Assembly (NCBI RefSeq): GCF_012926505.1
Contig: NZ_JABBNT010000002.1
Coordinates: 558,001 to 622,000 of the forward strand
Direction of reading: 5' to 3'
Length of the DNA stretch: 64,000 bases
Source: Pacificispira spongiicola
GTDB lineage: Bacteria; Pseudomonadota; Alphaproteobacteria; UBA8366; Aestuariispiraceae
Position 1 is the stretch's first letter; each line of letters starts with the position of its first letter. A program made the translations under genes and the position numbers. The notes below the pieces were generated by a model, which saw nothing but the letters and a program-made list of their open reading frames with translations, made no database searches and had not been told where the DNA came from. Below, one piece after another: positions 59,325 to 60,487 of the stretch.

Positions 59325-59750
59325 TTATTCGTAATCCCGAAGGTCGAGCCCCAGGACGCGGCAGATGGCCTCGCATTGGGCGCGTTCGGACTCCAGGAAG
59401 TCGCCGTCGGCGCGGCTGATGGCCAGGGCGATCTTGACCAGCATGACGGCGTCACCTGCGTCATGCCGCATTTCCTTTACCGCCTCCAGCGCCGCCTTGC
59501 GGCCCTTCACCGGTTCGGCGACGATCGCATCGACATGGGTATTGAACAGATCGACGGCCTCGTGCACGTCGAAAAATTTCAGCCGGTCGATGGCTTCCAG
59601 CACGTCGTCGACGCGGCTGCGTTCGGATAGGGAAACCTCCCCATCCGCGATGGCCACCAAGGCGCAGGTCGCCATGCAAGCCTCCAGAAACGGCCGGTTG
59701 CGATGCCGTGCCGTTCGTTCACCCAATGCCGTACGCAGCCCTTCGAGCAT
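59325..59750 (-). CDS. TerB-family tellurite-resistance-like protein
   Basis: 141 residues from the ATG at 59750 with GGGAG 6 nt ahead. All-helical TerB fold; MATCALVAIADGEVSLSERS and LVKIALAISRADGDFLESER are the two acid-bearing motifs, each with the A-D-G-E/D pattern for metal binding. It is short, without fused domain. Since VWA/PP2C/kinase triads (21807-25086) are linked to TerB/TerD systems in other bacteria, a joint role is possible but unproven. It is divergent from the riboswitch transcription unit. Confidence 0.85.
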   Translation of the reverse strand: MLEGLRTALGERTARHRNRPFLEACMATCALVAIADGEVSLSERSRVDDVLEAIDRLKFFDVHEAVDLFNTHVDAIVAEPVKGRKAALEAVKEMRHDAGDAVMLVKIALAISRADGDFLESERAQCEAICRVLGLDLRDYE

Positions 59751-59867
59751 GCACTCTCCCCCAAGACTTGTGCGTTGCAATAGTGGGGTCCCGGCGTTTC
59801 CTGGTCAACCAATGTCGCAAATATGCTGGATTCCAAACGCGGTTCGCGTAGGCTAAATCCGTTGAGA

Positions 59868-60076
59868 GAGCGGTTCCTCGACGGGGTTTCCCCCGAAGAG
59901 GATCAAAAGGGAATTCGGTGCGGTACCATGGGGCTTCCCCCACTGGACCCAAGGCCGAAGCTGCCCCCGCAACTGTAAGCGGCGAGCCCGCATCCGACCT
60001 AGCCACTGGCCCGATCTATAGGGCCGGGAAGGCAGGATGCGACGCACCGACCCGCGAGCCAGGAGACCTGCCGCTC
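59868..60076 (+). promoter_or_regulatory. Cobalamin (B12) riboswitch
   Basis: Family-typical elements occur in order: closing helix GAGCGG (59868-59873) with CCGCTC (60071-60076), AAAAGGGAATTCGGTG (59905-59920), the core GCTGCCCCCGCAACTGTAAG (59960-59979, B12-box-like segment), GCCACTGGCC and GGGCCGGGAAGGC (60002-60033), and GAGCCAGGAGACCTGCC (60056-60072). It resembles the classic btuB leader. It ends 51 nt before an ATG, and the SD sequence is not inside the riboswitch, so control may be at transcription or by sequestering through alternate pairing. Confidence 0.93.
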
Positions 60077-60127
60077 AATGTCTTGAACCTTATCCAACCC
60101 GGGCGGGGTGTCCCGGAAGGAGGCCGT

Positions 60128-60451
60128 ATGACAGTATCCCTGTATCCATCCGATTCCGTGGCGTCGCCGGTTGCGATTGCCGATCCCCAACAATGCCTGA
60201 CGGCGCTGTTCGAAATGGACACCACACTTCCGGACGGCTTTGCGGAAACCGCGATTCTGTCCTGGTTAATCAGCCTGCCGTCGGAAATCGATCCGGCGCG
60301 GGCGGCGGCGACGTTGGGATCCTTGCCCAGGATCGCTGGGGCCCAAGGCGGTGAGACGGGTCGGATTTCCCAGCTATTGAGGGAAATCGCGCGCTATCCG
60401 GCAGAAAAGCTGGCAGCGACCGGGCGGCGCGGCCATCGACGCCACGCGTAA
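60128..60451 (+). CDS. Unrecognised 107-residue protein under B12-riboswitch control
   Basis: Starts ATG at 60128 with a perfect GGAAGGAGG ribosome-binding site. The product begins MTVSLYPSDSVASPVAIADP. A helical middle follows (FAETAILSWLISLPSEIDPA, ISQLLREIARYPAEKLAATG) and the end is basic (RRGHRRHA). There is no signal peptide, membrane span, metal motif or Cys/His cluster that I can see. Genes behind cobalamin riboswitches normally serve B12 uptake, synthesis or a B12-independent isoenzyme; this one fits none. A terminator follows. It may be a small regulator or cofactor chaperone; this is conjecture. Confidence 0.7.
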   Translation: MTVSLYPSDSVASPVAIADPQQCLTALFEMDTTLPDGFAETAILSWLISLPSEIDPARAAATLGSLPRIAGAQGGETGRISQLLREIARYPAEKLAATGRRGHRRHA

Positions 60452-60457
60452 ACAGAA

Positions 60458-60487
60458 CCGCCCCCCTAACGCCGGTCAGGGGGGCGG
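60458..60487. terminator. Bidirectional terminator
   Basis: CCGCCCCCCT (60458-60467) pairs perfectly with AGGGGGGCGG (60478-60487). Strong stem between the riboswitch-controlled gene and the converging liv operon. Confidence 0.75.

Follow-up and report, generated by a model that had tools for sequence, protein, structure and literature searches.

Translational cobalamin riboswitches (RF00174), of which the E. coli btuB leader and env8 are examples, are the closest described counterparts of the leader analysed here. Passages of PMC10907184 and PMC2258182 describe ligand-driven docking of the C-rich loop L5 with L13, occlusion of the ribosome-binding site (RBS) and inhibited ribosome binding to btuB. 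The genes of cobalamin regulons are assigned, in a passage of PMC3766115, to B12 synthesis, B12 transport, cobalt transport and isozymes of B12-dependent enzymes. A passage of PMC2211319 further mentions two unknown genes, similar to each other, that follow B12 elements in metagenomes. Among the titles obtained in searches of open-access literature, none names the family described below; two older papers on B12 regulons lay outside this scope.

Within the window, i.e., the whole 64,000-nt stretch of DNA that was analysed, a cobalamin riboswitch precedes a 107-codon gene, P0001 (Table 1). Using cmscan, the aptamer matched RF00174 over model positions 1-189 of 189 with 125.7 bits (E 3.8e-31), the gathering score being 31.5, and nothing else in the window reached the gathering score of an Rfam model. 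As in the btuB leader and env8, the aptamer is complete and has a B12 box and a C-rich L5, and a putative hairpin with a G-rich loop lies at the RBS. In env8, the Shine-Dalgarno (SD) sequence is located within the hairpin loop, whereas in the P0001 leader it is just 3' of the hairpin. The systems also differ in that the gene regulated here is none of the known target types and in that the P0001 leader is known from sequence alone. With the known regulon classes, the P0001 family shares the control element and, in some genomes, operons with cobW, cbtBA and metE; however, Pfam and NCBIfam offer no family for it, and it cannot be placed in any of the four classes. The control element is ordinary; the regulated family we assign to the cobalamin regulon, but to none of its known classes of target. 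The metagenome genes of PMC2211319 likewise lie behind B12 elements and may or may not be identical with the P0001 family.

Table 1. Features of the P0001 locus, in positions of the window
Feature	Position	Strand	Basis
TerB-domain gene, divergent; role in the P0001 system only conjectural	59325..59759	-	Pfam TerB, 8.1e-14
Complete aptamer of the cobalamin riboswitch (RF00174), including a B12 box and the L5 loop TGCCCCC	59854..60089	+	cmscan
Putative P13-type regulatory hairpin CCGGG-CGGGGTGT-CCCGG, directly 5' of the Shine-Dalgarno sequence	60099..60116	+	Sequence; similar order in homologous leaders
Shine-Dalgarno sequence AAGGAGG, 4 nt 5' of the ATG	60117..60123	+	Sequence
Gene P0001, 107 codons, from the ATG at 60128 through the stop codon to 60451	60128..60451	+	Reading frame, homologues and dN/dS
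Inverted repeat between P0001 and the convergent ABC-transporter gene	60458..60487	.	T-run on the minus strand only

In the window leader, the loop GGGG of the P13-type hairpin is complementary by sequence to the CCCC of L5, and the two could pair. The order of aptamer, hairpin with G-rich loop, SD and ATG was found again in the riboswitch-type leaders of homologues. Counting the window, the L5 loop is TGCCCCC in 45 of 45 such leaders, and an SD was matched by a simple pattern in 42 of them. Six leaders, all of one genus, have GGCGG or GGTGG as the hairpin loop rather than GGGG, with L5 unchanged. Because L5 is invariant across the leaders, covariation does not back its pairing with the hairpin. 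Minimum free energy folding of the isolated leader segment did not pick the CCGGG/CCCGG hairpin, and isolated leader segments folded no better than shuffles.

These data agree with an earlier note on this DNA, which had recognised every classical element of a B12 riboswitch and a near-perfect RBS: the covariance-model search that it proposed gave a strong, full-length match, and AAGGAGG stands 4 nt from the ATG. The note had also described P0001 as its own unit and as the only gene before a strong terminator. The 3' neighbour of P0001 is a convergent ABC-transporter ATPase gene that resembles livF; P0001 is thus still its own unit and the only gene. The terminator is another matter. The inverted repeat between the two genes forms a strong hairpin (-32.5 kcal/mol for a 66-nt segment, z -3.45), but a scan placed the terminator-like T-run on the minus strand only, so the repeat looks like the terminator of the ABC-transporter gene and not clearly like that of P0001. 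On the other side of the leader, the divergent TerB-domain gene occupies the same place in L044, L045 and L047-L050, i.e., four loci of the window's genus and two of genus g3; TerB was identified using Pfam for the window copy, and neighbours in other loci were judged by eye. Downstream of the family gene in L006, L007 and L008, all of the window's genus, a manganese riboswitch (RF00080) precedes a small membrane-protein gene.

The P0001 family is under purifying selection and its coding frame is real. In ten pairs of close homologues, dN/dS ranged from 0.03 to 0.39, the weakest pair being L100-L101. For the window gene and two relatives, the values were 0.24 (L006) and 0.27, and substitutions relative to L006 numbered 34, 30, and 63 at codon positions 1, 2, and 3. 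The conserved frame with an excess of synonymous change, which the earlier note had named as a check, is therefore present.

The protein comprises a helical domain, approximately residues 20-99, and a basic C-terminus. Searches of Pfam and NCBIfam returned no family for P0001 at E up to 10, and none for any of the 19 members of set A3 at E up to 0.01; the families of CbtB, CbtA, CobW, MetE and CbiM in these collections likewise gave no match to the 107-aa protein. PHROGs yielded three matches only among the 19 members (E 0.05-0.1). Besides these, the lone match of the homologues to a known family, kleA_kleC, was low-scoring (E 0.096) and was rejected. A search of solved structures by sequence gave a best E of 1.3. 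The structure model, built from 15 sequences, was all-helical over residues 20-99. At its mean pLDDT of 72.8, nothing convincing was found among solved chains using Foldseek (best E 4.9) or among the 50 chains aligned using VIA-align (best Z 4.4, to vIF4G chain 9e5a_A). Plasmid records contained no match for P0001 or for one riboswitch-free homologue.

The tail of the protein is rich in arginine. At least four Arg occur in the last 20 residues of 67 of 74 members versus 28 of 181 background ORFs, which were not length-matched; the 74 members omit L026, L027 and the repeat L099. This composition is no more than suggestive of nucleic-acid binding. The family alignment has no conserved Cys or His column, and Cys is absent from the last 100 residues in 28 of the 74 members; a metal-binding chaperone was rejected on these grounds. 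As no fold or family match was obtained, the molecular role proposed below draws on tail composition and context only.

We used similarity searches to establish the extent of the family. As a single query, P0001 found homologues in nine of 98 related genomes, its own counted, and at all eight other loci, a cobalamin riboswitch was directly 5' of the gene. A profile of nine members matched at least 18 of 385 genomes of the class. In a phylum sample of 398 genomes, at least 16 were matched, all 16 from P0001's own class; the class- and phylum-wide searches scored the best 12 candidates or fewer per genome. Using profiles and fuller scoring, matches were obtained in 15 of 17 genomes of the family holding Dongia deserti. 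The window's order had matches in 13 of its 43 genomes, and a second and a third order had them in 13 of 31 and 49 of 61 genomes, respectively. These four fuller searches gave one match per genome at E ≤ 0.001, except for a weak second match in G486. The search of the third order produced 50 matches, of which 20 were left out as loci and, save G502, from the riboswitch test. Members with and without a riboswitch form one family: their profile-profile probability was 99.2%, and a riboswitch-free homologue used as query found only the window gene in the window's genome (E 7.2e-9). Judged from these searches, P0001 belongs to an undescribed alphaproteobacterial family.

We then evaluated the linkage to the riboswitch by searching for the B12 box in the 450 bp upstream of 76 loci, or 75 after removal of one repeat, with the weak hits L026 and L027 retained. 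A cobalamin riboswitch was just upstream at 44 of the 75 loci, and the B12 box was absent within 450 bp at the other 31, for two of which the available upstream sequence was shorter than 450 bp. The test was bimodal, the 44 loci having 0-2 mismatches and the 31 having 4-6. Results with cmscan were concordant: all 38 box-positive loci run (of 44) were confirmed, as opposed to none of the 17 box-negative loci run (of 31). For the six remaining box-positive loci, a genome search revealed the riboswitch at five and did not cover the sixth genome. By chance, an upstream cobalamin riboswitch is expected at approximately 1.7e-4 per gene. Outside this set of 75, the window locus is positive; no B12 box was present at 11 further loci of family f26, and cmscan detected no riboswitch at L079-L082, with no upstream sequence available for L080.

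Based on the RF00174 match, the 44 linked loci of 75, and the B12- and cobalt-related operons described below, P0001 is almost certainly a real protein gene of the B12 regulon, as the earlier note had suggested in calling it a candidate unknown member. The B12 context that the note proposed to look for is present among homologues: 44 of the 75 loci have the riboswitch, although the other 31 do not, nor do the 15 further loci. Both of the conditions that the note named as refuting its proposal thus turned out contrary to them. Where the note saw no link of the protein to B12, the operons of its homologues supply one.

The operon partner of the family gene varies: it is cobW, cbtBA, metE, gbcAB or none. 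In family f134, cobW follows the family gene at nine of 12 riboswitch loci, with its first in-frame start codon 4-28 nt on. In G449, cobW also follows the family gene, with no riboswitch at the locus and no cobalamin riboswitch found in the genome. Three loci (G423, G432 and G433) have the order riboswitch-ORF-cbtB-cbtA, and one (G021) has riboswitch-ORF-metE. In G013, the order is riboswitch-gbcA-gbcB-ORF; the family gene, a weak match (E 4.3e-5), is third and box-negative within 450 bp. One example each of CbtA, CbtB, CobW, MetE, the Rieske protein and the reductase was typed using Pfam, and other copies were typed by eye. In the window and in a serC-linked genus, the gene 3' of the family ORF is convergent. 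Elsewhere in the window's family, the same-strand genes 3' of the ORF vary, and no B12 gene was recognised among them. That the family gene is constant while its partner changes speaks for a function across the entire B12 response, and the changing partners are more independent evidence than the riboswitch linkage.

Two further arrangements were observed. In L054 (G433), L056 (G423) and L060 (G432), the ATG nearest the SD begins a different frame, 28-29 codons long, whose end lies close to where the family frame starts, an arrangement that suggests translational coupling in these cbtBA operons. In genus g229 (L113, L119, L123, L140 and others), a MATE-type transporter gene, identified by eye, occurs approximately 150-260 nt 3' of the riboswitch-ORF unit on the same strand and may or may not be co-transcribed with it.

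The surroundings of the riboswitch-free members differ among themselves. Of 14 listed riboswitch-free loci, six have a class I SAM-methyltransferase gene directly 5' of the family gene. In genus g266, a cobalamin riboswitch and then the family gene come after this same methyltransferase gene, and a 3' neighbour is common to two riboswitch-free loci, an additional gene intervening. The shared methyltransferase and neighbour indicate that this is the same locus with and without the riboswitch. An obligate partnership with the methyltransferase was ruled out, as matches at E ≤ 1e-20 occurred in only eight of 28 genomes and not in the window's genome; 17 of 24 riboswitch-type genomes tested had no match at this threshold. 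In family f26, a long open frame is 5' of the family gene at nine of 11 loci and was typed in G370 as glnE. The presence of the methyltransferase or glnE beside some riboswitch-free members points to a more general function.

Phylogenetic trees were used to evaluate the history of the riboswitch linkage. A first tree, built from 44 rows with and 26 without the riboswitch and omitting L026, L027, L030, L061, L096, L098 and L099, required two label changes and placed 25 of the 26 riboswitch-free rows in one supported clade. A second tree, to which the f26 clade was added, did not reject a single riboswitch clade (p-AU 0.47). This tree contained seven f26 rows, L030, L079 and L081 in addition, and omitted L026, L027, L061, L096, L098 and L099, as well as the long-branched or odd L025, L029, L031, L097 and L106 and many near-copies. 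Given this p-AU, the linkage may reflect one ancient event followed by inheritance.

We also surveyed 80 chosen genomes for other parts of B12 metabolism. CobN was present in all 44 riboswitch-type genomes, in 14 of the 16 that were riboswitch-free and in 15 of the 20 that were family-negative (riboswitch-type versus rest, Fisher p 0.0026, kinship ignored). A cobalamin riboswitch occurred somewhere in the genome in 44 of 44, 14 of 16, and 19 of 20, respectively. Thus, where the family gene lacks a riboswitch, the genome as a whole mostly does not, and the protein is also of use to cells in which B12 does not control it.

The following mechanism is proposed. When adenosylcobalamin is plentiful, the aptamer would bind its ligand, the C-rich L5 would kiss the G-rich loop of the P13-type hairpin beside the RBS, and translation would be blocked. 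When B12 or cobalt is short, the P0001 protein would be made, and its helical domain and Arg-rich tail would bind nucleic acid or a partner protein and so adjust B12- or cobalt-related functions. The riboswitch, the order of hairpin, SD and ATG, the frame and the linkage were established from sequence and conservation; ligand binding and repression were carried over from the known class. From the accounts of docking and ribosome block in passages of PMC10907184 and PMC2258182, we infer that B12 represses translation of P0001, which is very probable. The helical domain, the Arg-rich tail and the lack of conserved metal ligands favour a regulator or adaptor over an enzyme, transporter or cobalt carrier. 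The varying operon partners, all of which are within the B12 response, similarly favour an auxiliary role. Nevertheless, that P0001 is an auxiliary regulator or adaptor of the B12 and cobalt economy is put forward tentatively, at slightly less than even confidence, and it is doubtful that it acts through binding of nucleic acid by its tail. The explanation as a whole, a small protein repressed by B12 that serves as an auxiliary factor at low B12, is somewhat favoured. FbpB of Bacillus subtilis, a small basic Fur-controlled protein of the iron-sparing response, serves here purely to illustrate how P0001 might act. Like FbpB, P0001 is small, basic and, as proposed, induced when a metal cofactor is scarce; the regulator and ligand differ, and no homology is claimed.

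Other explanations were weighed against an auxiliary low-B12 factor. That the riboswitch serves something else, with the ORF a leader peptide, remnant or chance frame, is hardly credible. The other 28-29-codon frame that the SD-proximal ATG opens ahead of the family frame in G423, G432 and G433 would suit a leader peptide, but the dN/dS of 0.03-0.39 in ten close pairs and the conservation of the ORF over several families do not; indeed, these data rule out a chance ORF or leader peptide. Moreover, with a convergent gene next to it in the window and the serC-linked genus, the ORF stands alone behind the riboswitch there. Alternatively, P0001 could be an accessory of cobalt supply, e.g., an assembly or delivery helper for CbtBA uptake or the CobW/CobN cobaltochelatase branch, the other contexts being secondary. 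The family gene adjoins cbtBA at three riboswitch loci and cobW at nine, as well as at one riboswitch-free locus; CobN is present in every riboswitch-type genome (44/44), and the window's genome places cbiM and cbtBA under two of its other three riboswitches. However, the metE and gbcAB operons have no role in cobalt transport or chelation, the alignment lacks a Cys or His column, and CobN is absent from two family-positive genomes, both riboswitch-free at the family gene. We consider this accessory role unlikely.

A general housekeeping role, e.g., in methyl-group or nitrogen metabolism, would accommodate the riboswitch-free members: B12 control would have been added in some lineages, where the role weighs more when B12-dependent methionine synthesis fails. 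The methyltransferase directly 5' at six of the 14 listed riboswitch-free loci, the long frame 5' in f26 loci (glnE in the one typed), and the g266 locus, at which a riboswitch stands between this methyltransferase gene and the family gene so that both states are known from one and the same locus, are consistent with such a role, and the metE and gbcAB contexts also concern methyl groups. Nonetheless, a housekeeping role appears rather unlikely: no methyltransferase match at E ≤ 1e-20 was obtained for the window's genome or for 17 of the 24 riboswitch-type genomes tested, and the riboswitch-free members have no common set of neighbours. The accessory and the housekeeping role are both kept as live rivals. 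Finally, the family might act in trans as a specialised effector of B12 starvation, a small basic protein, induced through the riboswitch, that would attach to mRNA, ribosomes or B12-dependent enzymes and divert metabolism from B12 use. This is improbable but, if true, would add a further kind of output to the cobalamin regulon beside synthesis, transport and isozymes.

With an auxiliary low-B12 factor as the preferred reading, the P0001 family looks like an overlooked part of the bacterial response to B12 shortage: a family lacking a Pfam, NCBIfam or fitting PHROGs model and controlled by cobalamin riboswitches in several alphaproteobacterial families. Should P0001 be a regulator, it would represent an overlooked protein layer of B12 sparing in bacteria. 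Because the evidence suggests when the protein is made, its function can be addressed directly by limiting B12 or cobalt.

In total, the window's genome carries four cobalamin riboswitches. Apart from that of P0001, they lie 5' of a DUF4198-cbiM unit, of cbtB-cbtA, and of a Rieske oxygenase with a reductase-like gene. The first of these is L002 (contig C1), in which the riboswitch stands before a DUF4198 protein and CbiM. In L146 (contig C1, 5935-8263) of the window's genome, as in L143 (2676-5353), a cobalamin riboswitch is 5' of a GbcAB-like Rieske oxygenase and reductase. The name GbcAB (glycine betaine monooxygenase) was given by sequence impression; both G013 genes and the oxygenase of G000 were typed using Pfam. 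Such a riboswitch-led pair might be a B12-free stand-in for corrinoid betaine demethylation.
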